DNA of 35,520 bases from Pseudomonadota bacterium (lineage in GTDB: Bacteria > Vulcanimicrobiota > Xenobia > RGZZ01). The notes under the pieces were generated by a model, which was not told where the DNA came from, did not search any database, and worked only from the letters and a program-made list of their open reading frames with translations. The position numbers and the translations under genes were made by a program. Shown piece after piece: positions 3,001 through 19,552 of this stretch (the first letter of the stretch is position 1; each line of letters opens with the position of its first letter). The DNA is taken from the NCBI GenBank assembly GCA_010028905.1, contig RGZZ01000008.1, positions 1 to 35,520 of the forward strand, written 5' to 3'.

Positions 3001-3400
3001 GCCGCTCCGGTTGTAGAGGTAGACGTTCTCCGCGGTGAGCGCCTGCTCCTGATTGGCGAACCCACTGAGCACCCCGGCAACGAGGTTCAGGTAGTTGCCC
3101 GTCCCCCATGTTGCATGGATCTCGCCGCCCGTGGTGGTGAACACGATGTCGGCGGGACGGCTCTGATCGGTCACGTAGATCGAACCGCCCGACAAGGTCG
3201 AGTCGAGGCACAGCCGATTCGTCACATCGGTGACGATGGGCACGCTGCTGACCCCGATGTTGCGGGCGGTGAGGGTGACCACATCGGCACTGATGTGATT
3301 GCTGCCACTGGCCTTGATGTCACCGCTGTCGCTGGCGATGACGGCGTACGTGTCGGTACCCGTGAGGTCGAATCGGTTGACGGTGATATCGGCCGACGCG
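1..3400 (-). repeat. Giant internal repeat of tpsA, copy 2 (partial)
   Basis: The second copy of the 5.4-kb unit starts near 3400 and is cut by the window edge at a point matching about 5404 in copy 1. If it is complete, about 2 kb more of the gene lies to the left. The copies align along their full visible length but differ at many residues, so the duplication is old, or has been diversified, and is not an assembly artefact. Confidence 0.8.
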
Positions 3401-6400
3401 CCGGCCGGCGCGATGTTGTGATACGCCAGGCTGGTTCCGTGGGAGACGTCGGTGCTACCCGCCAGGATCACGTTGGCTCCGAGGTTGAGCACATTGCTCG
3501 TGAAAGTCAGAAGCAGCGGATTGCTGCTCTGATCGAGGAAGGTGAGGTAGGCATTGCCCCCCGCCGTGATGACGTTGTTGCGACTTGCCGAGGCGTTGTT
3601 GTCGGCGAAGATGCGCCCCCCCGTGCTCTTGATGACGAGGTCGCGGGTGACGTGGGTGAGCAGCGACGTGTCATTCGTGTTGTTGCCATCATAGCCGCTG
3701 GTGCCGATGTCGCCACCCGCCACGATGTAGGCGTTCACCGCGCTGATGCGGCTGGTGCTCTGCTGCACGATGGTGCTGTTGGGCACGCGGACGTAGGCAT
3801 TCGTGCCCGCCGTGATGGGATGGGTGAGGGCAAGCTGGCCCGTCGTGGTGAGGTCGACCACATGCGCATCGGCGATGATGCCGTTCACCAGCACGTTGTT
3901 GGCTGTGGCGTTGGCCGCCACGCCGCAGCCGCTCACATCGAGGGTGTTGAACGACCCCACCTGGAGATTGCTGCCGGTGTTGGTGTTGTAGAGATACACG
4001 TTGCCGGTGAGGTAGTTGCCGTTGCCATCGGTGGCGCCGCTGCCGTTGGCGTTCGTGCTCTCGGCCGCCAGCATCGGCGTGCTCGTGTAGATGCTGTGGG
4101 TGTGGTCGCCCACCCCCGTGTTGCCCCACAGCACCACCTGGCTGCCGCTCACCGTGCCTCCACCGGGGGCGGTGTTGGTTGCCGTGATGTTCCCGGTTGC
4201 GGCCACGATGCTGGCCTCGCCCGTGGTGGCACCAGCCGTGACGCTATTCTGGTTGAGCGCAACCGATCCGTTGGCATAGAGCGCCACGTTGCGGTCGGCG
4301 TTGGTGGTGTAGACGTCGCCCCCGTTGGTGAGGGTGATGTTGCCCGCCGGCGCGGCGAGGGTCACGTTGCCATTGGCGTACACGTGACTGGCCACGGTGA
4401 GGTTGCCCGCGGTGTAGACGCACACCTCGGCGTCGTTGGTCTGGGTGTACACGCCCGCGATGGGCGCGCTGGCCGACACGCCGCCGCAGCCGGAGGTGTC
4501 GAGGGTGGAATGGGTGTCGATGGTGAGGCCGCTGGCACGGGTGTTGCGCACATAGATGACGCCCTGGGTGCAGGTGGCCGAGAGATGTGACGCATCGATG
4601 TTGACGGTGTTGCCCGCGCCCGCCGCGCCGATGGGATTGAAGGTGTTGAGCACGACCGTGTCGGCGTTGATGGAGCCGCCCGTCTGCTCGGTGACCCCCG
4701 CCGTGGCCGAGACGATGCTCGCAACGCCACCGGGCGCGTTGATGGTGTGACTCCCCACCGAGATGTTGCCGTCGGCGTAGATGCCGACGTTGCCCGTGCC
4801 GGACGTAACATTGCCGCCGCTGAGCGAGATCTGACCGTTTCCTGACGTGGGCGCGGTGAGGCAGATGTCCCCGTAGCCGTAGATGCCCTGCACCTGGGTG
4901 CCGCTGAACAGCGTGTTGCGGGTGATGACATCGAACGAGCGGACATTCCACAGGTTGAGCTTGCCGCTGCCGTACGCGGCCACGTTCGGCGCGGAGATGG
5001 TAAGCGACAGGTCGGTGCCGCGCCAGATGTTGCCATAGTAGTGGTACTCATCATACCCGTGGGCCACGAGGGCGATGTCGCCGCTCGCCACCACCACGGG
5101 TGTGCCCGCGCTGCTGCCCGTGTGGTCGATGATGGTGGCCGTGGTGCTACCCGATGTGAACGGCATGCCCGCGGCCAGGGTGACCACGCTCACGTCGGTG
5201 TTGTTGGCATTGATGCCCACGATCTGACCTGCCTCGAGGGTGATGTTGCCCTGCGCCTCGAGACCGATGCTGTGTCCGCTGCCCACGATGGGCGCCTGGG
5301 CGACCGACATCGAGCCGTACGTGGCCGCATACACATCGCCGTTCGCCGTGAGACCGACGAGCCCCAAGGGGGCCACGCCGCCGCAGCCGCGGGTATCGAG
5401 GGTGGCGAGCGAAGGCGTGAGGGTCAGTCCCCCGTTGATGCCGCTCTCATCGACGTCGACGACGCTGATGTTTCCGGTGTCACTCGTCGCCGCCACGCGC
5501 GCGGCGCTGATGTTGAGCGAGGTCGAGGTCGAGGTGGTGGCCCCCACATTGCCCACGGCGTGCAGGACTACATCGTGACCCACCACGCGCCCCCCCGTGC
5601 CCTCTTTGATGGCCCCGCCCGCATCGACGCTGGCCTCGTAGCCCGTGTTCGTGCCGCCGCGGATGCTCGCGCCGTGCAGCGTCACGTCACCGCTGGCGTA
5701 GACCGCGGTGTTGCCCACGGTCGAGGTCGTGGTGTAGACGTCTGCGGCCACCGTCAGGCTGCCCGTGGGAACCGCCAGGCAGACATTCGAGCCGCCCACG
5801 CCCGTGACCGTGTACGGCGAGCAGAGAATGGCGGCCGCGGTGGTGGTGACGCTCTCATCGACCTGTATCGAGACGTTGCCCCCCAGTGACAGCGCCGCCA
5901 GGTTGCTCACCATCAGGTGCAGGGCGTTGGCGTCGACGCGGCTGGCCGCAATGCTGCCCGTGGCGCGGATCACGCCGGTGGTCGCGGTGATGAGATCGGG
6001 GTGGATGTTGTCGGTGACATTGTCCTGCAAGGTGATGCCGGCGTTGTTGATGACGTAGCCGGTGTGGATGGTCACATTGCCGGCGTTCAGGCTCACCACG
6101 TTGGTGTTCGCGCCGCCCAGCAGCTGATCGAGGATGAGGGTCCCCCCCGACTGCAGACCGATGTTGTTGCCGCTCGGGCCGGAGATGAGCGCCACGTCCT
6201 CGAGGGTGCCCGCCGAGCTGTAGCACACAGTGCCACCGCGGATGGTGACGACCTTGCCACTGTTCCCGAACACGTCGATGGTGGTCACGGCCTGGGTGGT
6301 GTTGGGATTGGTGTCGATGATCTGCATGTTGCCGGCAAGTCCCACCACGTCGATGAGGCTGCTCAGCGTGTTGGTGCTGCTGCCCGCCGAGACGTGATAG

Positions 6401-9400
6401 GGGTTGGCGCCGCTGCCCTGCACGTAGACCGAGCCGCTGCCGCCCACGCTGGCCCCCCACATCACGATGTTGTCGGCCTGCACGTAATCATCCCAGGTGT
6501 TGCGGCCCTGGAAGCCGGCGCTGCCCGTGATCTGTCCCGCGGTGCCGCCGCCATTCGTGCTCGAGGCGTCGAGGCTCACGGTGCGACCGCCGGCGAGGGC
6601 GCGGATGTAGGCGCCCACAGTGAGGTTGGCGCCGTTGGTCATCTGGATGGCCACGTCGTTGGTCGTGGAGGTGACCCCGGTGATGTTGCAGTACGCGCCC
6701 GTGGTGAGGCTCATGTCATCGGTGAGCGAGAACGCGGTATCCGCCAGGCCCGCCAGGTAGGGGGCGTGGATGTAGATGGGCGCGCCCACGGTCCCCACGT
6801 TGCCCGAGCCGGTCTGCGTTCCAGCCGCCGCCGAGAGCACGGCGAAGCTCGAAGCGTTCACATCATAGGAAACTCCGTTCGCGCGCTGGTCAACGATGTT
6901 TCCATTGTTGCCGGGGGCGCCGACGGTGGGAGTTCCCGCGAAGATGCAGACGTTGGTACCCGTGAGCGTCTGGAAGATGTTCACGTCTCCCGTCTCGGTG
7001 CGCAGAAAGACATCACCGCTCGTACCCGCCATGTTCTGCGGCGAGGTCATGCCATTGACGGTGACCGTCGCCCCCGCGGTGGTGTTTCCGGCATTCGATG
7101 TGTACGACACGCCGGTGACGTTGATGGCCCCGGCGGTGCGCACGTAGGTGGGACCGGAGTCGTTGGTGGTGGCGAGATTGGTCGCGTTGATGTAGATGGG
7201 ATGAGAGACATCGGCGGAAGACGTCTCGGCCGCGCCGATGTGGTAGGCGCCCGTGCCCGCGTGTGTGTTGAAGGCGTCGGCCCGCAGCACCACGTTCACC
7301 GCGCTCACGTTGTAATTGCCCAGGGCCGCTCCTGCCCCCAGATTATTGGTGACGTTGCCGCCCGCGATGACCGCCGCGGTGTTGGCCCCGACCGCGGTGT
7401 TGGTGGCCGACACATTGCCCAGCTGGATATCGCTGGTGCCGTTGGTGAAGAGCGAGATGTTGGTGTTCGAGGTCACCGCACGCGCGTACGCCGTGCCGTC
7501 GCTCACGAGAATCACCGTGTCGGTGGTGGGGCTGCTCGAGCTCACGGCAATCTCATGATTCGTGGCGTAGCCCCAGTTGGTGGCATTGAGGTTGTGGAGG
7601 TACATTCCACCGTCATTGATGGTGGCCCCCACATTCGTCACCGAGGTCACCAGCATGGGAACGCCACCGCCGCCATTCGGGTTCTGTCCCACGCTGCCCG
7701 GGTTCAAGAGATAGAGGTCGAGATTGAGCGCGGTGACCTGTGGATTCGCAGCGGTCGCGCTGGCGTTGAGCACGTCGCCACCATGCACGGTGATGCTCAC
7801 CGAATCGCTCAATGCCGTGAGCCCCCCCGTGCCGGTGGCCCCGAACTGATTCGGGTCGCCTACAAGCAGCACGTCCTTGCCACCGGTGGAGGTCACGCTG
7901 ATGTTGCCGTCACCGGCGAGGCCCGTACCCGCCACGACGTCGTGCAGCACCATCTGGCCGTTCCCGGTGATGTCGACGCTGCCGGCACTCTGATTGGGGT
8001 TCGCAGACACCGCCGACAGGGTCACAACGCCCCACGTGGGCGTGGGCGAGGCGGGGAGGTGGAAGCCGGCCGAGTACCCCACATCGGTGTAGAAGTTGTC
8101 GTTCACGGGAATGAAGCCGTCGGAGCCCGGCAGGTACCAGTAGGAGGGCTCGCTCACCGAAGCGCCTGCGTAGATCTGATCGATGTGCGCGGCGTCGCCG
8201 AGCATCTGCAGGTGGATGCCGTCGGTTGCGGCAGACGCGCCACTCACGGTGTAGGCGTTCACATGCATGGTCGCGTCGGTGAGCTTCACCGCCGCTGTGT
8301 CGCCAATGGAACCGGAGCCCGCATGACTTCCCTTCACCGCTTCGAGGTAGAGGGTGCCGTTGGTGAGGCTCGCGTCGGCGTAGGCGCCGCTACCCCCCTC
8401 GATGCTCCCGTTCAGGGTGCGCAAGAAGAAGATGCCCCCATTGGCCTGGTAGCCGATGCCCGCGCTGTTGTCGAACGTCACGTTGCCGGTGGCGTCGGTG
8501 AGATAGACGTTCTCGGCGGTCTGGCTGCTCTCTTGGTTGGCACGCCCGGTGAGGAGGCCACCCGACAGGTGCACGTAGTCGGCGCGGCTGTTGTTGGCAC
8601 CCCAGTTGGCATTCACGGTGCCGCTGTGGGTGACGAGGTAGAGGTTCGAGGGCTTCGTGGTGTCGTCGAGATACAGATTGCCGCTGACCTGCAGCGCGTC
8701 GGCGGCCAGCACGCCGGCGGTCTGCACGAGAATGGGATGGGCGTTGGTGCCGATGTTCTGGCCGATGAGCGTGGTCGAGGCCGTTGCGAAGATATCTACC
8801 GTGCTCGCCGAACCCAGGAGGCTGCTGATGTTCGCGCTGGCGTCGCTCAGGTAGATGGCGTGAATGGGATTGGCGGCCGTGGCAATGCCGTTGAGCCGAA
8901 GGTTGCTGGTGCCCGTGTTGATCAGCCCCAGGTCGAGGTTGCCAAACCAGCTGCTGCTCGCGCCCGGCGTGAGATTGAGATTCAAAACGCCCGATCCGGT
9001 GGTCTGGGTGATCTGGTCGTTGCTCACGCTGTCCTTGATGTAGACGGAACCGTCGTTGCTGGTGACGCTGAGGGTGTGGTTCACCGCGCCATTGATGACG
9101 ATGGGGTTTCCGCTGGTTCCGATGTGCGCCCCCGACGTCTCGGTGGTGAGCAGCACCGTGGGAACGCCCACCGTGCCGCTGCGCTCGATGGAGCCGCCCA
9201 CAGAGGTGATGTTCCACTCTCCGCCTGTGGTGGCGGTGATGTTGCCCAGGGTGACGGTGGCATTGCTCGTGTCGGTGAACAGCACCATCGCGCCGCCCGT
9301 GCTGCCGGTAAGGGTCGAGGGGGTGTAGCCCACGGTGGGCGCGCCCGAGATGTCCACCCGCCCATTGTTTGTGGTGATGTTCATGTACGTGGGCGAGATG

Positions 9401-11577
9401 CTCTCGTTCACGTACACCGAGCGGCCAGCCGCATCAGACTTGATCCAGAGATAGGGCGTGTTCACCTGCACCGACGACCCGTTGCTGCCGATGTCGTAGT
9501 TCACGGCCTCAAGCGAGACGCCGTGCGACGCGGTGATGGTGCCGCCCCCATTGACGATGCTCCCGTTGTTGGCCTGGGCGGTGAGGTCGCTGACGGTGTA
9601 GTTCCCCACCGTGATGTTGCCGTTGGTCGAGACGAGGTTTGCCGTTGTGGCGGTGACCGTGCCCGCTCCCGTGATGGCGCCCGATGTCGCGTTCAGGGTG
9701 TGGGCGTAGAAGGTGCCGAGATTGATGGTGTTCGCCGTGACGTTGGTGAGGCTGACATCGGTGCCGAGCCAGCCCGAGGTCGACGTCGAAGCCGTGGCGC
9801 CGTTGCCGTGCATCGTGAGGTACTGATTGGTGCTGCTGGTGTAGCCCCGCAGGTAGACGTCTTGACCGGTCCCGGTGAGGTTGACCGCCACGTTCGTGGG
9901 GAGCGAGCCGTAGCCGCTCGTTCCCGACACCGTCATGGGCGATCCAGAAGATCCCACCTGCGTGCTGTAGGTACCGTTGACCGTAAGGCTATCGGTACGA
10001 AGGTTCGGGACGCTGCCGCCGTCCCCACCCGTGGTGAGCGACCCTTGCGTGTTCAAGACGATTCCCTGGGGTGCATCGAGCCCGGAGTTGTATCCCACGG
10101 CCATGTTCACCAGGTTGGCCGTGATGGTTCCCACACCAGAGGTGTGGATGCGCATGGAGTAATCGCCGTTGGTGTACTGGCCGTAATACCAAGAGCCTCC
10201 GCTGTAGTCGCTCTGACTCGAGAGATACAGGTTGTTGGCCGAGATGTTCAGGCTCACGTTCGGGTAGAGGTTGATGTCATGGTCGGTGGTGTGGTAGTAG
10301 CTGGAGTAGCCGCCATAGGTGTAGTGGCGCACGTCGAACTCGACGGTGTCTCCCGCGATGTACACGGTGCCGGCGGTCACGCCCTCGATGCTTTCGACGG
10401 TCTGGTAGCTGTAGCTCGAATAGGGGTTGTCGTTGCTGCTCACGATGTAGAGCACCGTCGGGTCGACCAGCCAGGTTCCCCCCGTGCCCGGCTGCACGCC
10501 CCCTTCGAGCTGCACCCGGCTGCCCGAGGTCTCGATGAAGCCCCCCTTGCCCCCGGGCCCGGGCAGCGTGGTCATCTGCGAGCCCTGGCGGGTGACCAGC
10601 GTTCCATCGGAGTCGATCTTGATGCTGCCGCCGTTCGACCCCGCACCCGATCCGTTGGCGCTGAGAACCGAGCTCGGCCCTGTCACCGTGGCTTGTGTCG
10701 AGTGCACGTCGATGGCGCCAGCGTTGGAACCCCCAAGCCCGTCAACACGAATGATCCCGTTGTTCACCGCCACACCGGACGCACCCACGAGCGACACGGT
10801 GCCATCCGGATTGGCTGCCATGCTGCCGGCCTCGACCACGCTGTGATTGGTGATCACCTGCGACAGCAGCGTGCTCAGCGCAGCCTGGGGAACCACCACC
10901 GTGCCGGGCTTGCCTGTCATCCCAGGCATCGACCAGTTGATGAGGTTTCTGCCGTCGAAGTTGAGCGTGATCTTCTCGCCCGCCCCGAGCACGACCTTGC
11001 CCAGGTTGCAGACGATGAGGCCCTCGTTCGAGACCAGGGGAGCGGTGAGAACCGCGTATCCCCCGTCGGTGACCGTGATGGTGCCCTGGTTCACCACGGA
11101 CGCGAGCTTTGCATTGGGATCTTGCGACAGGTTGTATCGCCCCGCGAGGAAATCAGAGTCAGACATCTTCAATGTCGAGACGAGCAGGCCGGCGGTGTTC
11201 ACCACTGAGGTCGGGGTGAAGAGCACGCCGTTCGGATTGAGCAGGAACACCTGACCCGTGGCGCTCAGCTGCCCTCTGATGATCGACGGATCGCCCCCCG
11301 TCACGCGGTTCAAGATGATGCTCAGCTGACCCGGCTGGAGGATGCGCACCGCCTCGTTGGGATTGATGCTGAACGAGCGCCAGTCGATGATGGCGCGACT
11401 GGTGAGCTGCTCGATGGTGGTCACATTCGGACCGGGCTTGACCACCACGTTGCCGTGCTTGACCGTTGGATCGGTGGGACTGGCTGCAGACGGCAAGACA
11501 AGTGCCGCGAAGAGCCCTCCCACGGCGACCAGCGCCCGGATGTGCTTCACTGCTCGGGTTGCGATGCGAAATGCCAT
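1..11577 (-). CDS. TpsA-type filamentous haemagglutinin-like exoprotein, C-terminus beyond window
   Basis: This is the secreted partner of a two-partner secretion (type Vb) pair. I read the frame on the minus strand as open from ATG 11577 to base 1, giving 3,859 codons without a stop. GAGGAG at 11584-11589 sits 6 nt before the ATG. Residues 1-33 look like a long Sec signal peptide ending PSAAS. Residues about 40-270 match the TPS/haemagglutination domain, with IDWRSFSINPN near 64-74, RVTGGDPS at 91-98 and NPNGVLF at 114-120. A GGFIETSG stretch (346-353) and GTWLVDP (367-373) follow, both typical of large haemagglutinins. The remainder is rich in Gly, Asn, Thr, Ser and Val, with short alternating strands, as expected of a beta-helix shaft. 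Residues from about 925 on form a tandem duplication with a unit of about 1,800 residues. Adhesion or surface display is likely from the family; the cargo or effector end is not visible. Confidence 0.93.
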   Translation of the reverse strand, partial: MAFRIATRAVKHIRALVAVGGLFAALVLPSAASPTDPTVKHGNVVVKPGPNVTTIEQLTSRAIIDWRSFSINPNEAVRILQPGQLSIILNRVTGGDPSIIRGQLSATGQVFLLNPNGVLFTPTSVVNTAGLLVSTLKMSDSDFLAGRYNLSQDPNAKLASVVNQGTITVTDGGYAVLTAPLVSNEGLIVCNLGKVVLGAGEKITLNFDGRNLINWSMPGMTGKPGTVVVPQAALSTLLSQVITNHSVVEAGSMAANPDGTVSLVGASGVAVNNGIIRVDGLGGSNAGAIDVHSTQATVTGPSSVLSANGSGAGSNGGSIKIDSDGTLVTRQGSQMTTLPGPGGKGGFIETSGSRVQLEGGVQPGTGGTWLVDPTVLYIVSSNDNPYSSYSYQTVESIEGVTAGTVYIAGDTVEFDVRHYTYGGYSSYYHTTDHDINLYPNVSLNISANNLYLSSQSDYSGGSWYYGQYTNGDYSMRIHTSGVGTITANLVNMAVGYNSGLDAPQGIVLNTQGSLTTGGDGGSVPNLRTDSLTVNGTYSTQVGSSGSPMTVSGTSGYGSLPTNVAVNLTGTGQDVYLRGYTSSTNQYLTMHGNGATASTSTSGWLGTDVSLTNVTANTINLGTFYAHTLNATSGAITGAGTVTATTANLVSTNGNITVGNYTVSDLTAQANNGSIVNGGGTITASHGVSLEAVNYDIGSNGSSVQVNTPYLWIKSDAAGRSVYVNESISPTYMNITTNNGRVDISGAPTVGYTPSTLTGSTGGAMVLFTDTSNATVTLGNITATTGGEWNITSVGGSIERSGTVGVPTVLLTTETSGAHIGTSGNPIVINGAVNHTLSVTSNDGSVYIKDSVSNDQITQTTGSGVLNLNLTPGASSSWFGNLDLGLINTGTSNLRLNGIATAANPIHAIYLSDASANISSLLGSASTVDIFATASTTLIGQNIGTNAHPILVQTAGVLAADALQVSGNLYLDDTTKPSNLYLVTHSGTVNANWGANNSRADYVHLSGGLLTGRANQESSQTAENVYLTDATGNVTFDNSAGIGYQANGGIFFLRTLNGSIEGGSGAYADASLTNGTLYLEAVKGSHAGSGSIGDTAAVKLTDATMHVNAYTVSGASAATDGIHLQMLGDAAHIDQIYAGASVSEPSYWYLPGSDGFIPVNDNFYTDVGYSAGFHLPASPTPTWGVVTLSAVSANPNQSAGSVDITGNGQMVLHDVVAGTGLAGDGNISVTSTGGKDVLLVGDPNQFGATGTGGLTALSDSVSITVHGGDVLNASATAANPQVTALNLDLYLLNPGSVGQNPNGGGGVPMLVTSVTNVGATINDGGMYLHNLNATNWGYATNHEIAVSSSSPTTDTVILVSDGTAYARAVTSNTNISLFTNGTSDIQLGNVSATNTAVGANTAAVIAGGNVTNNLGAGAALGNYNVSAVNVVLRADAFNTHAGTGAYHIGAAETSSADVSHPIYINATNLATTNDSGPTYVRTAGAINVTGVSYTSNAGNTTAGATVTVNGMTSPQNMAGTSGDVFLRTETGDVNIFQTLTGTNVCIFAGTPTVGAPGNNGNIVDQRANGVSYDVNASSFAVLSAAAGTQTGSGNVGTVGAPIYIHAPYLAGLADTAFSLTDDMSLTTGAYCNITGVTSTTNDVAIQMTNGANLTVGAYIRALAGGRTVSLDASSTNGGGTAGQITGSAGFQGRNTWDDYVQADNIVMWGASVGGSGSVYVQGSGANPYHVSAGSSTNTLSSLIDVVGLAGNMQIIDTNPNTTQAVTTIDVFGNSGKVVTIRGGTVCYSSAGTLEDVALISGPSGNNIGLQSGGTLILDQLLGGANTNVVSLNAGNVTIHTGYVINNAGITLQDNVTDNIHPDLITATTGVIRATGSIAASRVDANALHLMVSNLAALSLGGNVSIQVDESVTTTAAAILCSPYTVTGVGGSNVCLAVPTGSLTVAADVYTTTSTVGNTAVYASGDVTLHGASIRGGTNTGYEASVDAGGAIKEGTGGRVVGHDVVLHAVGNVGATTSTSTSLNISAARVAATSDTGNISVVDVDESGINGGLTLTPSLATLDTRGCGGVAPLGLVGLTANGDVYAATYGSMSVAQAPIVGSGHSIGLEAQGNITLEAGQIVGINANNTDVSVVTLAAGMPFTSGSTTATIIDHTGSSAGTPVVVASGDIALVAHGYDEYHYYGNIWRGTDLSLTISAPNVAAYGSGKLNLWNVRSFDVITRNTLFSGTQVQGIYGYGDICLTAPTSGNGQISLSGGNVTSGTGNVGIYADGNISVGSHTINAPGGVASIVSATAGVTEQTGGSINADTVVLNTFNPIGAAGAGNTVNIDASHLSATCTQGVIYVRNTRASGLTIDTHSTLDTSGCGGVSASAPIAGVYTQTNDAEVCVYTAGNLTVASHVYANGNVTLAAPAGNITLTNGGDVYTTNADRNVALYANGSVALNQNSVTAGATTGEASIVAATGNITATNTAPGGGTVSGSQVVLWGNTGVGDHTHSIYTSTPMLAAESTNANGSGATDGNGNYLTGNVYLYNTNTGSNLQVGSFNTLDVSGCGVAANATANNVLVNGIIADAHVVDLTTTGQLALTHPITAGTNAYVRVPNSTIVQQSTSRISAVNAYIVAGGDIGTSGYDGNNTNDTSLLTHVTRDLVIKSTGGRIFADNNASASRNNVITAGGNAYLTFLDQSSNPLLLTFTSNVLNLGANVILAGSTDVSHGTSLAYHNIAPAGASADITVNRFDLTGTDTYAVIASDSGDIKASGSNHISADVVTLTARNIGVSSVPIVTDVTNRLCLDSTLSGGSIYVTDQSRPADIVFTTTGGEIHATWGTGNYLNLVAGVLSGFANQEQALTAENVYLYNRSGDITFDNYGAYGGTLSVVALSGNINGGFHPGVADVTMSAGSTTGTVYLDAVRTGAGTGSIGNTRAVVFTGANTHVNAYTEGGASASDGINLVALGDMDHFDQIYAGGSFRDQRVMDFDNFSLTYGVCRLQAVSTDNERSAGSIAITGDGLLGLHDVVAGTNAANDGSVSVTSTNGGNVRLYGETGVNGTAGIVARADAVTISMQNGGSVLNYDLANHSTYADVTAHTLDITIANGTGSVGANPCAGAGNLLLATLVDQVGLSVADGGAYVHNLQAVAWGYANGHDINVHSNNPTTDAVVLISDGTATVRSITANTNISLFTNSNGDIKVGNITDTNTSAGANTVAVISNGSILNNLGAGNTGGNYNIVATNTILVADANRSSVNNGTVTIGNGETSSTDVTHPLYLNTSYLSTYNASGGTYIRNAQGVEVVSQSYTDQACSTQTVNGMTSPTSSADWSTDYYRPWYGDLMLRTESGNITISRTITAHNVTLVGDSIVHGSGTNTDVVASSTMLLDAVGIGGTVGTAPHQLVTDAAHMAIKSDSLVNVHNLSATTVGTYDNTEHNGNGTYNYPATVTLTGIETNGAVCLLNDGSVSIDSHIVSAGDDVGVQTTAGNIYLNSNVSATTAGNTVSLDASAGGGNIANPGNSTGAYVQADHIILWGANVGDVNQNNGVTRAPIYVQGSGANPFTVSAGSSTNLVNTLVDVVGLSGNMDITSNGVSTIDCGAGSHAVTLQGWQVCYQSAGTLHDVDLINGNGPNNNRIALEAGGNITLDQVLGTSSAGHQTSLVSVHAGTENGGPGGTIVNNGVSGDQIVSTTAVLETHGNLSIRLQAQNLAATSNSGNLQVRNDSGFTVVQQDLLCSGGTVYGVSGANVCLVATTGGITLNQNVFTTTPTTGNTAVYAPGNISLNQYTIAGGTGSGSTASVQSGGVITATSGAVVGRNVVLSAQGDISSSTNTGGLLNISAANVAAQSATGGIGLYDRDAGGLNTGLTLTTLTVL
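3400..8800 (-). repeat. Giant internal repeat of tpsA, copy 1 (about 5.4 kb)
   Basis: This is the first copy of a diverged tandem repeat inside tpsA, at roughly residues 925-2725. Anchors that recur in copy 2 include LISDG/LVSDG with NISLFTN (near 7450-7510 and 2045-2105), LHDVVAG (near 7935 and 2535), QGSGANP and VDVVGL (near 6400 and 970), and TAENVYL (near 8510 and 3025). Measured offsets are 5400, 5403, 5436 and 5484 bases, all multiples of three. Boundaries are approximate because the ends diverge. Confidence 0.8.
3921..5407 (-). repeat. LDTxGCG submodules in tpsA (three copies)
   Basis: Within repeat unit 1, a short submodule ending in LDTRGCGGV, LDTSGCGGV or LDVSGCGV occurs three times. 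The copies are encoded near 5375-5407, 4479-4509 and 3921-3948. Spacings are about 890 and 555 bases. Each copy is followed by a similar run of short Gly/Ala/Asn-rich strands. This suggests that the large unit itself grew from smaller duplications. It is one of few places in this shaft protein where Cys recurs at a fixed position. Confidence 0.6.
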
Positions 11578-11670: not shown

Positions 11671-13266
11671 CTAGAAATCGTTGGAGAAGAAGATGTAGGG
11701 CACCAGATGGCGCCCCTGGGTGCGGGTCAGGAAGTTGTTGCCGATGGGGTAGCCGAGGTCGAAGTTGAGGGTCATGTCCTTGGTCGGGTTCAGGCGAAAG
11801 CCGAGCCCGGCGCCAGTGAGGTCGATGCTGGGAATGCTTCCCGGCGGCGCGCGCAGCTGCCAGGCTGCGCCGTGGTCGACAAATGCGGTGATGGCCAGGG
11901 TCTCCGGATGCTCCGCGATGGGCATGTAGCGGAACTCGGCGTTCACGTTGTATCCGGAGTCACCGAGATAGGAGGCCTGGAAGTAGCCGCGCACCGTGTC
12001 AACGCCGCCCAGGCCGTACTGGTTTGCGGTGGGCAGGCGCTGGGTAGAGATCTGTGTGCTGCCCCGCAGCAGCAGCAGGGAGTGCTGGCCCAGGCGCTGC
12101 ACACGCGCCAGGTCCGCAAGCCACACATCGAAACCGCCACCCGCGGCGTTCGTCGACCGCGGGTCGTTCGTGCGCATGCCGCCTACCCAGAGGCCCAGAT
12201 CCTGAATGAGTCGCACGCCACCGATCCAGCGACCATCGCTGTCGGTGTGCGCCGTTGTGAAGCCCACCTGCACAGCGCGGAGATAGTCCCGGCTGTTCTC
12301 GATGCCGAACAGCGAGTTGTGGATGTTCTGCACCAGGAAACCGGCCTGGAGGTCGAGGTCGTGCTGAGGCTCGCGGATGAACGGGTGTGAGATCTGCAGC
12401 CCGTACACCGCGGCGGTGCCACGGATGTCGAGGGCCTGGAGCTCCTGTCCCACCGCGAAGGCGGCATTGCTGTAGGAAGCGACGAGCTTCGTCCCGTCAT
12501 AGCCCAGCGGATGGGTGTAGGCGACCACCCCGGTGAACACGCCCTGGGCCGCCAGGCTCTGGAACCCGTGCATGACGAGCTCGTCGGCCGCGCCGGTGAG
12601 GTTCCCGAAATGCGCGGTGGCCCCGGGACGGTTGTAGCCGTTGAGACGGGCCCCATAGTTGTTGAAGTCGACACCGAACCCCATCGGGTTGTGATCTTCA
12701 ACGTTCAGGGTGACATCAACCGTCTCCGGCTTCTCCCCCGGCTCGATCACCGTGCTGGCCTTCATGCCACGCAGCTCGTTGACGAGCAGCACCGCCCGTT
12801 CGAACTTCTCCCGGCGCGGATACGGATCCCGCAGCGCGTCATCGAAGTAGTGGCGCAGCAGCGGGGAGGCGTAGTTCTTGTTGCCCGCGACCTTGAATGT
12901 GCCGAGCTTGTTCTGCACCACGTAGAGGCGAACGATGCCGTCCGCGCCGATGCGCTGCTGCGGCACGAGCACCCGAACCGTGAACCAGCCGTGATCGAGG
13001 TAGGCGCGGGTCAGCGCGTCCGCCACGCCGCGAATGCCCTGGAACGTGAGCGCCTTGCCCTTGTACGGGGAGAGCACGCGATCGACGTCGCGCGCATCGA
13101 GCAACGTGTTGCCCTCGACTGTGAAAGCCGTGACGGTGATCCTGGCCGTAGCATCTGTTCCGCCGGCAACCGCGATGCGACTGAGAAGCAGAACGGCAAA
13201 CACAATGACAGACAGGCATCGCTGCAGCAACCCCAGCCTGACGATTGCACGCTCGCCGTGCGACAT
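11671..13266 (-). CDS. TpsB outer-membrane transporter (ShlB/FhaC family)
   Basis: This Omp85-superfamily pore exports the neighbouring TpsA across the outer membrane. I choose ATG 13266 (531 residues) because an ideal AAGGAGG lies at 13271-13277; an upstream in-frame start lacks this. A signal peptide (CLSVIVFAVLLLSRIAVAG) is followed by a POTRA-type region, with FTVEGNTL and then YLDHGWFTVRVLVPQQ. A second POTRA stretch (FKVAGNKNY) and a beta-barrel follow. The conserved VRGY motif of the barrel loop is at residues 425-428, inside GLGGVDTVRGY. The protein ends in alternating aromatic residues with a terminal Phe (IFFSNDF), as expected of a barrel insertion signal. Length fits the family (about 550-600). 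It is first in the operon, with tpsA starting 93 bases after its stop. Confidence 0.95.
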   Translation of the reverse strand: MSHGERAIVRLGLLQRCLSVIVFAVLLLSRIAVAGGTDATARITVTAFTVEGNTLLDARDVDRVLSPYKGKALTFQGIRGVADALTRAYLDHGWFTVRVLVPQQRIGADGIVRLYVVQNKLGTFKVAGNKNYASPLLRHYFDDALRDPYPRREKFERAVLLVNELRGMKASTVIEPGEKPETVDVTLNVEDHNPMGFGVDFNNYGARLNGYNRPGATAHFGNLTGAADELVMHGFQSLAAQGVFTGVVAYTHPLGYDGTKLVASYSNAAFAVGQELQALDIRGTAAVYGLQISHPFIREPQHDLDLQAGFLVQNIHNSLFGIENSRDYLRAVQVGFTTAHTDSDGRWIGGVRLIQDLGLWVGGMRTNDPRSTNAAGGGFDVWLADLARVQRLGQHSLLLLRGSTQISTQRLPTANQYGLGGVDTVRGYFQASYLGDSGYNVNAEFRYMPIAEHPETLAITAFVDHGAAWQLRAPPGSIPSIDLTGAGLGFRLNPTKDMTLNFDLGYPIGNNFLTRTQGRHLVPYIFFSNDF

Positions 13267-13431
13267 GTCCCCTCCTTCAACGCAAGAAGACCAGGCCACG
13301 CACGATCCGTGCACGACCCGGCATTTCCTGTCTCTCCCTACGGCGCACGCCTGAGGGCCCGAGCGCGGTTCCCCGAACAGGAACTACGAGCACCGCAGTC
13401 CGGCTTGTGCGCATAAAGCGCTGATGACACC

Positions 13432-13700: not shown

Positions 13701-15656
13701 TCACCCCACTGCGCCCTCGCCGCCGGCGGCGGCTTCGCGGTACTGACGTCCGCGGTCGGCGATGATGGCGCCTGCTTCGAGGCGCTGCTGGCCCTCGCGC
13801 ACCTGGGCTGTACCCTCGTGTTCCAAGGAGGCGCCTTGTGTCTGTGCCTCGCGCGCGGAAGCGAGCATCTCGTCGGCCTTGCGCTGCCCGCCGAGGGCCC
13901 CTTCCACGATGACCCAGCCATCGGCCGCCGTGGCGCGACCTGCGGCCATCGCCCCCTGCGCCTCGCGCAACTCGGCGGCTGCAGTCTCCTCAGCGGTGCG
14001 CGCCCGCTGCCCACGCTCGAGTCCGATGCCCACCTCGCGCAAGCCGCGTCCGACGTGGCGCTGGGCGGCGCGCTCGTTCACGCGCCCGTCGTGAAGCTTC
14101 TCGAGACCGGCTTCCTGGCGGGCGTGGGCGCGATTCTCCCGATCGAGCGCGGTGTGCAGGTTGCCCAGGCCCTGGTCGACCTTGTTCGTGCCTGCGCGCT
14201 CGACCTGACGGCCCTCCCGCCACTGGGCGAGCCCAGCATCCTGACGCGCCTGGCCAGCCTGCTCGGCCGCAAGCCCCTCGTGCATCTGGCGCAGCCCCAG
14301 GTCGACGTCGGCGTCGCCACGGGCCTTCAGCGCCGTGCCCGCGGCGCGCTTCTGGCCTGAGAGCGCGCGATGCTGACCGGCCTGGGCGCGATCTTCAGAG
14401 GCCTCCAGCAGCAGGCCCTGACCCTGGGTCTGGGCAACCTGGCTCGCGCCGCGATGAACATCGGCCTCTGACGCCAGCCCACCGGCCTGAGCCCTCAAGC
14501 GGGCAGCCTCTTCACGGAGGGCCGCGGCGCGCTGCTCGGACTGCGCCGCGCTGGCCTGCAGCTGGGCGGAACGCCCCAGGAGGCACTGCCCGTGCGCGAT
14601 CTCGCCCTGCCCGCGGCAGACCTGCTGCGCGCCGATCATGTACGTGAACGGGCACCACATGGCCATCTGGCCCTGGCTCACATCGCAGGCGCCACGCTGG
14701 GTCCACCAGGTTCCCTCACGCGCCGCGCACTCGGCCTGGGCTCGCTCAGACGCAGCCTGCTCGGCGCTCCGCGCCGCCTCGGCCTCGAGCTCGGCAGCGC
14801 GGCGCACGAGCGCCGCCCCCTGGGCGTCGAGCTCGGTGGCCCGCTGCTCGTCGAGCGCCGACTGCTGGAGAAGACCCTGGCCCTGCACCTCACGCTCGCC
14901 CGCGGCGCGGTCGAGCCCATCGGCGAGGTTCCACTCATTCAAGGCTTCGCCCACGAGCGCCTCACCGCGCGCAGACAACGACCGGCCCGACTGGTAGCGC
15001 GCCGCGCCGGCGTCCTTGGCGGACTCCCCTGCCCGCTCGGCCTCACGCCCCCCATCGAGCTCACGAAGGGCATCTGTCTCGATCTGCTCTCCCCGCCGAT
15101 CGTCGACGCGCCCACTCTCGATGCGCGCGACACCGCGATCCTTGAGCGACTCTGCCTTCTGCGCGCTCGTGCGCCCATCAGCAATGGCGGAGGTGCCCGC
15201 CCGTTCGGTCCGGGCCGCGCGACGCGCCGACTTCAAGCCCTCGTCAACGAGCGCGAGCCCCGTTCCGACGTGCCCGCCGGCGGCGACGTCACGTCGGTGG
15301 GCAGCCTGGGCGCGCCGCAGGGCCTTCTCGGCATCGGCCGTCGCCCGATCGGCGTCTGCCACGCCCCGGTCGACCCCGTCAAGGCCGCGAGCCAGGGCTG
15401 ATTCACTCGTTCGCGCCATCTCCTCGGCCTCGGTCGACGCCTGTCGGCCGGACGCGGCCAGGGAAGAACCCTGCTGAATCGAAGCGCTGCCGCGCTCAAC
15501 GAGGTCGCGGCCCTCGCGCGTCATCGCCTCTCCACGCTCGCAAGCATCGCGACCACTGGCGTCGAGCGCCTGACGAACCTGTGCCGCCGATCCATCGACG
15601 GGAAAGCCCGCTTGTGAGATACGCGCGAGAAGCGGGGGCAGCTGCAGGTTCGACAC
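13701..15656 (-). CDS. 651-residue Gly/Ala heptad-repeat protein, predicted antiparallel helical hairpin
   Basis: I do not recognise a named family. GTG start 15656 follows GAGGTGA by 6 nt. After 33 residues the protein is a gapless series of heptads: 43 at residues 34-334, seven residues (335-341), then 44 at 342-649. One position per heptad (35, 42 ... 329; then 342, 349 ... 643) is always small. By hand count there are 49 Gly, 33 Ala and 5 Ser in 87 heptads. A weaker Leu/Val/Ile/Ala stripe lies four residues later. The rest is rich in Glu, Arg, Gln and Ala, suggesting helix. The hinge carries WW, CPF and five Cys (310, 324, 335, 347, 358). Residues 329/342 and 324/347 are both symmetric about 335.5, next to Pro336. 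A small residue every seventh position is the signature of close-packed antiparallel Alacoils. There is no signal peptide. It follows the LytM-like gene by 172 bases. Confidence 0.85.
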   Translation of the reverse strand: MSNLQLPPLLARISQAGFPVDGSAAQVRQALDASGRDACERGEAMTREGRDLVERGSASIQQGSSLAASGRQASTEAEEMARTSESALARGLDGVDRGVADADRATADAEKALRRAQAAHRRDVAAGGHVGTGLALVDEGLKSARRAARTERAGTSAIADGRTSAQKAESLKDRGVARIESGRVDDRRGEQIETDALRELDGGREAERAGESAKDAGAARYQSGRSLSARGEALVGEALNEWNLADGLDRAAGEREVQGQGLLQQSALDEQRATELDAQGAALVRRAAELEAEAARSAEQAASERAQAECAAREGTWWTQRGACDVSQGQMAMWCPFTYMIGAQQVCRGQGEIAHGQCLLGRSAQLQASAAQSEQRAAALREEAARLRAQAGGLASEADVHRGASQVAQTQGQGLLLEASEDRAQAGQHRALSGQKRAAGTALKARGDADVDLGLRQMHEGLAAEQAGQARQDAGLAQWREGRQVERAGTNKVDQGLGNLHTALDRENRAHARQEAGLEKLHDGRVNERAAQRHVGRGLREVGIGLERGQRARTAEETAAAELREAQGAMAAGRATAADGWVIVEGALGGQRKADEMLASAREAQTQGASLEHEGTAQVREGQQRLEAGAIIADRGRQYREAAAGGEGAVG

Positions 15657-15828: not shown

Positions 15829-16986
15829 TCAGTCGCGGAGGTCGGCGAGCACCTGGTCGAGCTGGGGGACTGCCTGACGCGCATCTTTCAAGGTCTGCTG
15901 ACGGCGCAGCCAGTCGGCCAGCGCGTTGGCGCCCCCCGTTGCGGTGCCGTCAGATCCTGTGAGGGCGCTCGTGATCGCGCCGTTGTCGAGAAAAGCGGCG
16001 AGCAGCACCTCTTCCGGCACTTCCTCCACCGCCAGGCGATCGCGCGCTGCAGCGAGATCGCGACGCACCTGGGCCAGCAGCTCGACGGGCGCGGTCGATC
16101 CGCCCGCGGCAAGCGACGCTTCGTCGCTGCGCAGCTTCACGTACCCGAGGGCCGCGTTCACGGCCTCCCGGCGCAGGGTCCAGTCTGGTCCGGCCAGCGG
16201 CGGAAACACACGGCTCTCGCTGCCAGGCTCGCCATTGACGAGCGCCGATGCGACGGGGCGCTCGCCCGGCGACGAAAGGGGAACGAGCTGCGCGAAGTCG
16301 ATGGCCTGCCCCTTGGCGTTCTTCATCTTCACATCGACGTGGTCGCGCACGATGGCACCCACGGGATCGCCAGGCTCGAGCGACTGCCCGACACGCACGC
16401 ACGGCGCCAGGTGACCGTAGGTGGTGTGGAAGCCGTCCGGCGAGATCACGGTGATGCCGTACTCACGGCCATACCAGCGCGTGATGGCGCTCACGCGGCC
16501 GGGCCAGCCCACGACGACGGTGGAGCCCGCGGGAAGAGCGACATCGTAGCCGTTGTGACGCCCACCCACCGCGCGATAGACAGAAGGGGACCGCCAGTCG
16601 CTGAAGCGACCCGTGATGGTGCCGCCCGGGGTGGTGTGGTCGAGGATGCCGAGGTACTCGGCGAGATTGCGCGCCGGACCGAGCGAAGCGCCCTGGCGGG
16701 ACGCCGTCGATCCCACACCGCGCGAAGCGAGCCGCGCGCGCGGGCTTCGCGCCGCCTCGCCTCGCTCGGACCGCTGCCGCTGTCCGAGGACCAGGCTTCG
16801 GCGGGTGAGCCCCTTTACAAGGGCTTCCGCCTTCGGAGACGCGCCCGCTTCGGCGCGCGGCGTGACGTAGGAGGCGGGCCCGCCGCCTGCGGGGCGGTTG
16901 AAGGCGTTCGGCGTACCCGCCATCGACGGGCTCGCGGCTGCGAGCAGGGCGGCCAGGCAGGCCGTGAGGGTGCGGGGATGCATCAT
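15829..16986 (-). CDS. Secreted M23/LytM-fold protein with an altered metal site
   Basis: I choose ATG 16986 (385 residues), which follows AGGAGAG by 5 nt. Residues 1-23 form a signal peptide (LTACLAALLAAASPSMAG). A low-complexity linker leads to a LytM domain at about 125-225. It has HNGYD (His144, Asp148), YGHL (His192) and, in place of the usual H-x-H, HVD (His216, Asp218). In the family, the second His of H-x-H is a zinc ligand, so activity may be altered or lost, as in LytM regulators such as EnvC. A helical tail of about 130 residues follows. It may act in the periplasm on peptidoglycan or as an amidase activator. The downstream neighbour in the same direction is the heptad-repeat protein. 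Confidence 0.8.
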   Translation of the reverse strand: MMHPRTLTACLAALLAAASPSMAGTPNAFNRPAGGGPASYVTPRAEAGASPKAEALVKGLTRRSLVLGQRQRSERGEAARSPRARLASRGVGSTASRQGASLGPARNLAEYLGILDHTTPGGTITGRFSDWRSPSVYRAVGGRHNGYDVALPAGSTVVVGWPGRVSAITRWYGREYGITVISPDGFHTTYGHLAPCVRVGQSLEPGDPVGAIVRDHVDVKMKNAKGQAIDFAQLVPLSSPGERPVASALVNGEPGSESRVFPPLAGPDWTLRREAVNAALGYVKLRSDEASLAAGGSTAPVELLAQVRRDLAAARDRLAVEEVPEEVLLAAFLDNGAITSALTGSDGTATGGANALADWLRRQQTLKDARQAVPQLDQVLADLRD

Positions 16987-17198
16987 GGAACTCTCCTGGC
17001 TTCGGATGAGGCCTGCGCAGCGCACTGCGCGAAGGGCGCTCGGAGATGCCCCTCGTGCACGACAGCGTCAACGCGGTCTGGGGGCGTCGGCCCGTTCGGA
17101 GCACGTCGCCACGATTCCTGCCCAGATCGGCTGACAGGCTTCCGACACCTCGCGGAGAAGAGGGCCGACGTGAACACCGCATCGGCGACCGCGCACCC

Positions 17199-18377
17199 AT
17201 GACCCTGGTCTTTCCGGACGGTCTGCGCTTCGACTGCGGATCGTGCACCCGCTGCTGCCGCGGCACGTGGAGCGTTCCTCTCGACCCGCAGGCCTGGCGC
17301 CGCATCAGCACCTCCGATCTCTTCGCGCGGCTCACCGAGGAAGACGGCGCCGCCCCCGCCTACCTCGAAGATCCGGAAGCGGGAGAGTGCAGCGCGCGAA
17401 CCCGGCTCAAGAGGGCCGACTGCGCCTTCCTGGCCCCAGACGGCAAGTGCCTCGTCCACAAGGAGCTCGGCGCCTCCGCCAAGCCCTTCGGGTGCAGCCA
17501 GTTCCCCTTCCTCGTGCGCCCCACGCCGGACGGCGTCTACGTCGGGGTCTCGTTCTACTGCAGCGCGGTGCAGGCCAACCACGGCCGTCCCTTGAGCGAG
17601 CACGTGGGCGATCTCGAGCGGGCCGTCGCAAGCCACCACTTCCCTCGCATCGGCAGCCGCGTCGCACTCGACCCGCAGCGCGACATCGCGTGGGAGGTGT
17701 ATCGCGACCTCGAGGCCAGCGCCGAAAGCACGCTGGCGGGCACCCCTGGGCTGCGCGAAGGCCTCTGGCTGGCCGCCCTGCGCATCGTGCTGCTCTCGAG
17801 CCTGCTCGGGCGGCAGGGGGGAGAGGCAGGCGAGCGCTGGCAGCAGGTGCGCGGGGTGAACATTCCCTACGACGAGATCTTCGCATCGCTCGAAGACATC
17901 TTCCTCGTCGGCATCGTGGGGGCCATCGAGTCGCGCGACCCCGCCGAGTGCCGCGCCAACTGCGAGGCCTTCGTCCGCCGCGGACATGTGGTCACCGAGT
18001 CGTTCGGAGCCATCGACCTCACCCACTTCGACGACTTCCGCGGCCGCTTCGACCCCGCGTGGTCGGAAGCCGAGATGCGACGCTTCGTCGAGCACCTGCT
18101 CTTCCGCAAGTTTCTGCCTTACAAGCGCAACCTCGCGGCCAACGCCGCCGCCTGGTACCTCACCGTGCCGCTGCTGAGCCTCTACCGTGATCTCTCGGCC
18201 TTCTCGGCCGGACGCCTGCAGCCAGACATCACCGACCTGCGGCGCGGCTTCGAGATCGTCGAGCGAAGCTTCACCCTGCACGTCAACCTGCTCGATCCGC
18301 TCTTCGAGGAGCTTGCGTCGGGATACCGCCGCATGCTCGACGCGATGCCCGAGCTCACCGCTGGAGGACCGCCATGA
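17199..18377 (+). CDS. Cys-cluster protein, FliB/YkgJ-like, copy 1
   Basis: The 392-residue protein starts at ATG 17199; its frame is open further upstream but nothing recognisable is there. The N-terminus carries CxxCxxCC (Cys13, 16, 19, 20), then Cys75, Cys84 and Cys99 in the order C-AFL-DGKC-VHKELG-GCSQFPF. This is the layout of the putative zinc/iron-chelating YkgJ family and of the Fe-S domain of FliB lysine N-methylases. A conserved PTPDGVYVGVSFYCSAV block adds another Cys. About 270 further residues are mostly helical and unassigned. The length (about 400) and the W-V after the CC favour a FliB-like arrangement over short YkgJ proteins. No flagellar gene is nearby, so the target is unknown. 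Its last four bases overlap the start of copy 2 (ATGA). Confidence 0.75.
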   Translation: MTLVFPDGLRFDCGSCTRCCRGTWSVPLDPQAWRRISTSDLFARLTEEDGAAPAYLEDPEAGECSARTRLKRADCAFLAPDGKCLVHKELGASAKPFGCSQFPFLVRPTPDGVYVGVSFYCSAVQANHGRPLSEHVGDLERAVASHHFPRIGSRVALDPQRDIAWEVYRDLEASAESTLAGTPGLREGLWLAALRIVLLSSLLGRQGGEAGERWQQVRGVNIPYDEIFASLEDIFLVGIVGAIESRDPAECRANCEAFVRRGHVVTESFGAIDLTHFDDFRGRFDPAWSEAEMRRFVEHLLFRKFLPYKRNLAANAAAWYLTVPLLSLYRDLSAFSAGRLQPDITDLRRGFEIVERSFTLHVNLLDPLFEELASGYRRMLDAMPELTAGGPP

Positions 18378-19552
18378 CCCTCATCTTCCCCGAGAGCCAC
18401 CGCTATGACTGCGGCTCGTGCACCAAGTGCTGCCGCACTGTGTGGAACGTGCACGTGTCGCCGAAGGCCTACGATCAGATCGTGGGAACCCCCCTGTTCG
18501 AGCGCATGAAAGCCGAGCACGGGCGCGACCCCGTCTACATGGACGAGGTGAGCGGAGAGAAGAGCGCCCTGGCCCTGGTGAACAAGGGCGGCTGCATCTT
18601 CCTCGGCCCGGATCGGCTGTGCAACGTGCATCGCGAGATCGGCGTGGGCGCCAAGCCACTCGGATGCCGTGAGTTCCCGTTCCTGCCGGTGCCCACGCCG
18701 GACGGCGTCTACGTGGGCCTCTCGTTCTACTGCAGCGCGGTCCAGGCCAACCACGGGCGACCGGTGGAAGCGCACGCCGCCGAGATCGAGGGCATGCTGA
18801 ACGAGTACCGCTACGAGCGGGTGGGCTTCGACCCCATCGCCCTCGACCGCGATCGCCACATCTCGTGGAACGCCTACAAGGCCCTCGAAGCGTTCGCAAC
18901 GGCGCGCCTCGAGGGGTCGGTGGGCGACGCCGCGTGGGACGTGGCCTGCGTGGTGGCGCGCGCGCGTCGGGCCCTCCCCGCGGCGCAGACGTCGCCTGCG
19001 GGCGGAGAAGCCTCGCCCTTCGTGGTGGACGACGCGCACTGGCAGGCGCTGCTCGACCAGCACGCGCCCGTGCCAAAAGACGATGTGCTGCTGCACGTCG
19101 AGCGCATGTTCGTCGAAGGGGTGGTGGGGGTGCTCGAATCCGACTCGCCCGAGGCCTGCAAGGCCAACACCGAAGCCATCTTCCGACGTGGCCGCCTCAC
19201 CAGCGCGACGCTGGGGGGCGAGATCGATCTTGCACACCTCGATGACTTCCGCACCCGTTTCGACGCGTCGTGGTCGCACGCCGAGATCAGGCGCTACCTC
19301 AACCAGCTGGTCTTTCGCAAGTTCCTTGCGCTGAAGCGCCCCCTCGCGAGCAACGCCGCCGCATTCCATCTCGCGTGGCCCCTGCTGGGCTGGTACCGAG
19401 ACCTCTCGGCCTACCACGCCGGGCGACTGGCGCCTGACATGAACGACCTGCGCACCGCCTTCGACGTGGTCGAGCGCGGATTCATCATGCACGCCCGCAA
19501 CATGGACCCGTTCTTCGACCAGCTGGCCGACGCGCTGTCGAAGCTCATCTGA
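18374..19552 (+). CDS. Cys-cluster protein, FliB/YkgJ-like, copy 2
   Basis: This paralogue of the preceding gene has the same length (392 residues) and is translationally coupled by a 4-bp overlap. Cys13, 16, 19 and 20 form CxxCxxCC, and Cys74, Cys83 and Cys98 follow (C-IFLGPDRLC-VHREIG-GCREFPF). PTPDGVYVGLSFYCSAVQ is shared with copy 1, as is a C-terminal block with FRKFL, SNAAA/ANAAA and YRDLSA. The central part differs more, including a loop rich in Ala and Pro near residues 200-215. Preservation of all Cys in both copies suggests both bind metal or an Fe-S cluster. A heterodimer is possible. An alternative is a plain metal-chelating protein with no catalytic role. Confidence 0.75.
   Translation: MTLIFPESHRYDCGSCTKCCRTVWNVHVSPKAYDQIVGTPLFERMKAEHGRDPVYMDEVSGEKSALALVNKGGCIFLGPDRLCNVHREIGVGAKPLGCREFPFLPVPTPDGVYVGLSFYCSAVQANHGRPVEAHAAEIEGMLNEYRYERVGFDPIALDRDRHISWNAYKALEAFATARLEGSVGDAAWDVACVVARARRALPAAQTSPAGGEASPFVVDDAHWQALLDQHAPVPKDDVLLHVERMFVEGVVGVLESDSPEACKANTEAIFRRGRLTSATLGGEIDLAHLDDFRTRFDASWSHAEIRRYLNQLVFRKFLALKRPLASNAAAFHLAWPLLGWYRDLSAYHAGRLAPDMNDLRTAFDVVERGFIMHARNMDPFFDQLADALSKLI

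Follow-up and report, generated by a model that had tools for sequence, protein, structure and literature searches.

On the minus strand of a 35,520-nt stretch of DNA (the window), we examined a gene whose product is very probably a helical hairpin, with two long heptad arms that carry a small residue at every seventh position and that match each other in mirror orientation about a Pro turn. As the best explanation overall, to which we assign a probability of roughly 60%, we propose that this protein is a leaderless, soluble rod that would bundle with an anciently duplicated paralogue and act as a cytoplasmic spacer or scaffold, with partners bound at its tip and its base. The gene and the parts of its product are listed in Table 1.

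Table 1 Coordinates of the rod protein gene and of the parts of its product within the window
Feature	Window positions	Strand	Description
Rod protein gene, paralogue A	13701..15656	-	651 aa; GTG start 15654-15656, stop 13701-13703; homologues 620-690 aa
N-terminal tail, residues 1-33	15558..15656	-	Low model confidence; no signal peptide, no hydrophobic segment
Arm 1, residues 34-334	14655..15557	-	43 heptads, stripe at 35, 42 ... 329; model helix 24-332
Hinge insert, residues 335-341	14634..14654	-	C335-P336-F337 turn; stripe spacing 13, register shift -1
Arm 2, residues 342-649	13710..14633	-	44 heptads, stripe at 342, 349 ... 643; model helix 336-644
Conserved N-terminal base, residues 29-49	15510..15572	-	Placed beside the C-terminal base by the hairpin
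Conserved C-terminal base, residues 617-644	13725..13808	-	Q-x-x-x-A-G-x-I-x-x-x-K/R-G-x-x-Y; end away from the hinge

A small-residue stripe along 87 heptads

The initial annotation of this ORF, made from the letters of the DNA, had described 87 gapless heptads with one invariantly small position and a single change of register. Every figure it gave proved correct: at a stride of 7, the longest runs of Gly, Ala or Ser in the protein begin at residues 35 (43 heptads) and 342 (44 heptads), the stripe position is small in 87/87 heptads (Gly in 49, Ala in 33 and Ser in 5), and the only register change falls at C335-P336-F337, where the step from G329 to G342 is 13 residues rather than 14. P336 is invariant in an alignment of 17 sequences. 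The third-longest run of this kind in the window protein spans 5 heptads, and the longest run in 2,000 residue shuffles had a mean of 6.2 and a maximum of 14 heptads. Autocorrelation at lag 7, proposed with the annotation as a check, was 0.37 for Gly, with values of 0.22–0.24 at lags 14, 21 and 28 and values near or below zero at other lags.

Homologues in which the stripe is broken had been named in advance as the finding that would speak against this design. Instead, Gly, Ala or Ser occupied 85–100% of aligned stripe positions in homologues. Identity to the window protein among its relatives was 50–84% within the stripe and 10–29% outside it, which makes the stripe the most conserved property of the rod protein.

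The protein is very hydrophilic and biased in composition (80/651 residues are Gly). Hydrophobic residues are placed at +1, +3 and +4 from the stripe, in ~27–41% of heptads, and follow a super-repeat of 21 residues, with an autocorrelation of LIVMF of 0.23–0.25 at lag 21 and 0.19–0.23 at lag 42, compared to ~0.10–0.14 at lags 7 and 14. In several members, L004 and L006 among them, the repeating unit can be written as G[L/I]xx[I/L]xx-G[L/F]xxExx-[A/G]ExxKxx. We infer an intramolecular seam made up of the stripe and the residues next to it, whereas the 21-residue pattern may be used for packing side by side.

The two arms match in mirror orientation

Read outward from the hinge, the stripe of the window protein is GGGAAAAGASGAAAGGGGGAGGGAGGAGGAAAAGGSAGGGGGG in arm 1 and GGGSAAAAASGAASGGGGGGGGGAAGGAGGAAAGGAAAGGGGGAV in arm 2, two strings of Gly and Ala that are almost alike. 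The detrended correlation between these arms at offset 0 was 0.66 for Gly and 0.61 for hydrophobic residues, and 0/5,000 permutations of arm 2 gave a higher value. Across 15 members, the mirror correlation peaked at offset 0 (0.61 for Gly and 0.53 for hydrophobics), compared to at most 0.20 and 0.13 in the direct orientation; these members are related and their combined value hence does not sum independent tests, whereas the single-sequence test on the window is independent of that relatedness. Some members had their best Gly correlation at offset +1, or their best hydrophobic correlation at +3 or −3, and the mirror match was not significant in the short member L081. Charges at +3 and +4 were weakly anticorrelated between arms at offset 0 (−0.18 and −0.14, respectively).

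The heptad layout of the family was characterized by a hidden-state scan of 28 members. In nearly all of them, the two arms are separated by a Pro turn at which the register shifts by −1; the remaining ones have long non-heptad tips or, in the case of the short member L081 and of L019/L078, another shift. The arms are nearly equal throughout, with 42–45 and 43–45 heptads in members of the window type (A), 41–42 and 41–42 in members of the second type (B, described below), 39 and 39 in L078, 43 and 42 in L018, and 19 and 20 in L081. Stretches that depart from the heptad pattern are mirrored between arms as well, as in L079 (14-[69]-18 in one arm and 19-[69]-14 in the other) and L080 (14-[69]-18 and 19-[76]-13). 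In these two divergent B genes (of genomes G010 and G013), the mirrored stretches of 69–76 residues lie near the dip or break seen in the AlphaFold2 models of other members and perhaps form an elbow. Furthermore, five members (L012, L016, L018, L019 and L078) replace the turn with disordered, non-heptad loops of ~49–111 residues, which would be expected at the tip of a hairpin rather than midway along a straight one.

Structure prediction of the monomer, a further check put forward with the annotation, was performed with AlphaFold2 (six sequences) and returned two helices of 309 residues each, separated by a three-residue turn (333–335). The window model had a mean pLDDT of 79 and a pTM of 0.31, with mirrored dips in confidence near residues 120–160 and 505–545, and the B-type model turned at 316–324 and showed mirrored breaks at 164–173 and 461–470; for the A and B models, pLDDT values of 79–80 were accompanied by pTM values of only 0.31–0.34. 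The proposal that two arms of ~300 residues fold back on each other into a rod tens of nanometres long is thus supported by the mirrored sequence, the near-equal arms, the mirrored irregular stretches and the models. At 1.5 Å per residue along each arm, the rod would measure ~46 nm.

An extended antiparallel homodimer would consist of near-straight chains of ~92 nm, the first arm of each pairing with the second arm of its partner. This arrangement would show mirror-matched and equally long arms just as a hairpin does, so that mirror correlation alone cannot separate it from a hairpin. We nevertheless consider such a dimer improbable, as a straight helix would be interrupted by the invariant or near-invariant Pro and the exact −1 register shift at the hinge of A and B, as well as by the long disordered loops that five members carry at this site, and AlphaFold2 places a turn at the hinge in both paralogues.

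Two ancient paralogues with conserved ends

A search of the phylum with a profile of 17 members, as the annotation had suggested, found matches in 25 of 149 genomes, ~20 of them substantial, and a wider scan of sequence collections recovered only three loci, all from the window's class. The family is found in large-genome lineages of the phylum and is absent or marginally matched in the dominant family (f12). UBP9 is a class of Eremiobacterota (WPS-2) according to Ward et al. 2019 (PMC6664022). A rod gene of the UBP9 class also has a near-identical copy in JAAZKF010000147.1 (L077), a record titled Burkholderiales bacterium whose organism label looks wrong. No rod match was obtained by tblastn against 50,697 phage and 72,556 plasmid records and no rod relative was found on viral contigs, and an origin from a phage or plasmid was rejected on these grounds.

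The family contains two anciently duplicated paralogues, A and B, each of which forms one clade with 100/100 support. Members of A have a CPF-like tip that is rich in aromatic residues and Cys, and members of B have the tip LLxRKAxIDxxAGxxLxxxPxFxEEG and are about three heptads shorter per arm. B is retained in every well-covered lineage that has A, except for family f11 (A only). The two genes are convergent neighbours in three genomes (G001, G002 and G008) and lie ~7–9 kb apart in the g9 genomes; in the window's own genome, the B gene is broken into two pieces, one at an end of contig C539 and the other at an end of C256. The rod is most conserved at its ends, with values of 2.54 at the tip and 2.44 at the C-terminal base of B (mean 0.89) and 1.35–1.38 at the base of A (mean 0.69), and the ends therefore look like binding sites and the shafts like spacers.

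L081 (G002:C54, 12098–13237, plus strand) may represent a third type of member; this short protein (379 aa) carries the stripe on arms of 19 and 20 heptads and differs from the others in its tip.

Genomic neighbourhood and cellular location

Except for B, we found no neighbours of the rod gene that are conserved beyond closely related genomes. A conserved operon was rejected, since the B paralogue was the only neighbour to recur in more than one family; a gene for an M23 peptidase lies close upstream of the rod gene, but in only two of the three f1 genomes. In the window, the rod gene is directly followed downstream by a TpsA/TpsB pair on the minus strand, made up of a TpsB/ShlB transporter (11671–13314) and a TpsA-type protein (1–11577; TPS domain, E 1e-29) that has at least 3,859 residues and runs off the contig end. 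This pair adjoins the rod gene of the window and not those of its relatives, and we rejected it as a two-partner secretion partner on that basis.

Several other genes were observed near members of the family. In the window, two adjoining, overlapping genes on the plus strand (17046–18377 and 18374–19552) encode CxxCxxCC / FliB lysine-N-methylase-like proteins, and a homologue of these genes lies upstream of the A gene in G001. Next to the split B gene of the window's genome (L056, G000:C256, 780–7281), we found a gene for an L,D-transpeptidase of the YkuD type, together with a repetitive ORF that spans at least 1,042 aa and is weakly similar to the window's TpsA-type ORF. In L057 (G002:C34), the A gene and a gene for an M23 peptidase that is related to window positions 15829–17025 flank a minus-strand gene (8028–9083) whose product is an SLT transglycosylase; its long N-terminus is disordered, and no signal peptide is obvious.

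No signal peptide or membrane segment was found in any rod member, and the maximum 19-residue Kyte–Doolittle hydropathy was 0.79 in the window protein and at most 1.54 across the family. These values bear on an exported or membrane-active rod, whose A tip would touch a membrane in the manner of two-component α-helical pore-formers or translocators after a leaderless exit, for example through the flagellar export apparatus. Such a rod would be consistent with the two paralogues, the aromatic and Cys-rich A tip of several members, leaderless N-termini that are rich in Ser, Asn and Gln, the weak similarity to AhlB and SmhB in Foldseek (E 0.14–0.15) and the flagellar-type genes present in these genomes. 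We judge it unlikely, however, because the hydropathy stays below that of a membrane-crossing segment, the profile for SctJ of non-flagellar injectisomes (TIGR02544) scored above its cut-off in 0/36 genomes with only weaker FliF-like matches, flagellar genes without a rod are common among the genomes, and the AhlB and SmhB matches are no better than those of any helical hairpin. Two specific candidates of this kind were likewise rejected: type III secretion cargo, given the SctJ result and a distribution of FHIPEP (138/149 genomes) that does not track the rod, and an α-helical pore-forming toxin of the ClyA/AhlB/Xax type, given the lack of a hydrophobic membrane-inserting hairpin and a Foldseek E-value of 0.14 only.

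Less probable readings of fold and coding status

A signalling rod, in which a signal would pass from base to tip along a chemoreceptor-like four-helix bundle, would account for the shared architecture of equal heptad arms, turn and paired indels, and the best short-domain Foldseek match is the cytoplasmic domain of a Thermotoga chemoreceptor (2ch7_B; TM 0.58 by target length, E 0.24). However, the rod protein has no match to Pfam or to MCPsignal (PF00015), though this profile finds a receptor elsewhere in the same genome (one gene, on contig C11), which led us to reject membership of the chemoreceptor family. The rod protein also comes without a sensory domain, a membrane anchor or conserved chemotaxis neighbours, and we hold a signalling rod to be very unlikely.

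Composition (hydrophilic, biased and rich in Gly, as given above) would suit a disordered, desiccation-type low-complexity protein, or a fold that is heptad-based and non-helical, such as a β-roll, which the initial annotation had kept in consideration. A disordered chain would need neither a register kept free of slips through 87 heptads and throughout the family nor arms that match each other; the stripe is strongly conserved, and both AlphaFold2 models are helical at pLDDT 79–80. The helical models thus disfavour the non-helical alternative, and we give very little credence to either of these readings.

The rod ORF is a genuine gene. The GC-rich window has many overlapping ORFs (GC3 of the rod gene is 0.81), but the possibility that the rod ORF arose by chance, as a long open frame on the non-coding strand of high-GC DNA, is already refuted by the rod homologues, which are full-length and free of stops (20–36% identity, in a search of 98 related genomes), show dN/dS values of 0.11–0.27 for close pairs and occur in genomes of 30% to 71% GC, and we attach virtually no probability to it. 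This range of base composition also rules out GC bias as the source of the stripe pattern; in two genomes of 30% GC (G028 and G031; GC3 0.15–0.16), the homologous ORFs have equal length and stripe.

A proposed role for the paired rods

In our preferred reading, a leaderless soluble hairpin, two helices of ~309 residues joined by the Pro turn would form an antiparallel rod of ~46 nm, with the termini meeting at its base and the turn forming its tip. The Gly/Ala stripe of each arm would face the other arm, placing Gly opposite Gly and Ala opposite Ala, and the local spacing of the helices would then be set pair by pair in an Alacoil-like packing; long Gly-rich helices would not obviously be stable alone. 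The hydrophobic residues that recur every third heptad (21 residues) would create sticky patches every ~31 Å and thereby allow side-by-side assembly, in which A and B may bundle while their tips and bases bind partners. We propose this co-assembly of A and B tentatively.

The rods could serve in the cytoplasm as a spacer or a scaffold. Given the hairpin, we put the chances for and against such a role as about even; it is a guess from form, since, B aside, there is no conserved neighbour that would point to a process. More speculatively still, A and B might be two subunits of an undescribed intracellular structure of Eremiobacterota, in which 46-nm hairpins with stripe-coded spacing would bundle through their 21-residue period into a regular rod or lattice, with contacts at tip and base. 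The ancient parallel retention of A and B points to a hitherto undescribed structural system in an almost uncultured phylum, and the rod family may provide a template for the design of very long antiparallel rods.

Comparison with known systems

The rod protein had no family match in Pfam or NCBIfam and no credible family in the PDB, and a comparison of 17 rod members with Pfam at E ≤ 1 yielded only five chance families. Sequence matches in the PDB, to designed antiparallel coiled coils (E 0.006–0.03) and a T7 tail fibre, were rejected as compositional. Foldseek returned generic long coiled coils, with SMC/MukB at the top, as well as PrgA and chemoreceptor hairpins. In a family that thus lacks a match in Pfam, NCBIfam and solved structures, a single sequence read by eye is enough to assign the antiparallel partner of nearly every heptad.

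Enterococcal PrgA (6z9l; Foldseek E 1.4e-3, TM 0.34 by query length) resembles the rod in having a long helical stalk, but it is a cell-wall-anchored surface protein with a globular domain, and at 11% identity and an rmsd of 86 Å the match reflects gross shape only. The arms of SMC, MukB and Rad50 share with the rod a long intramolecular antiparallel coiled coil, and the mirrored breaks of the B model are reminiscent of an elbow. Unlike SMC and Rad50, the rod has no hinge domain and no ABC ATPase head (no Pfam match; its termini are short tails), and a short conserved base is all that the termini form where they meet.

At the level of sequence, we rate the Gly-heptad repeat of YueB and Pip (xxxLxxG; TIGR03057) as the best parallel; the YueB/EsaA/Pip ectodomains and the rod are both long heptad rods with one Gly per heptad. 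By its title, Sao-Jose 2006 (reference 166 of PMC9863714) describes the YueB ectodomain as forming a fibre. These proteins are, however, extracellular membrane proteins of mostly Gram-positive bacteria with transmembrane segments, and no such segments flank the repeat in the window protein, where hydropathy over 19 residues peaks at 0.79. Membership of TIGR03057 was rejected, as the profile had no match in the window's genome and its matches in eight relatives lie elsewhere, none at the rod gene.

Based on equal heptad arms and paired indels, the best architectural parallel is the chemoreceptor (MCP) cytoplasmic hairpin, whose classes are named 24H to 44H. Both are long, antiparallel hairpins with a conserved tip, and throughout the rod family we found the equal heptad arms and mirrored indels that characterize chemoreceptors. 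The rod differs in having ~88 heptads, compared to at most 44, and a Gly/Ala stripe in every heptad, and in being without the MCPsignal domain, membrane anchor and tip signature. As neither MCPsignal nor TIGR03057 matches it despite the parallels with chemoreceptors and YueB/Pip, we rate the rod proteins as a new family; the long antiparallel hairpin itself is known, and the fold is not new in kind.

The packing that we propose for the seam is closest to that of Alacoils, antiparallel coiled coils with Ala or another small residue at every seventh position, for example in ROP and ferritin, in which the helix axes lie unusually close together (about 7.5–8.5 Å). Like an Alacoil, the rod has a small residue at one heptad position of both helices (87/87 heptads in the window protein and at least 90% in most members), and its helices run antiparallel and in register, with a mirror peak at offset 0, no direct peak and a turn in the AlphaFold2 model. 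Known Alacoils are short, whereas the stripe of the rod extends over 43–44 heptads per arm, is half Gly, and has Gly and Ala matched across the pair. The rod family offers a natural test of how the choice between Gly and Ala controls helix spacing in close packing that extends over tens of nanometres.
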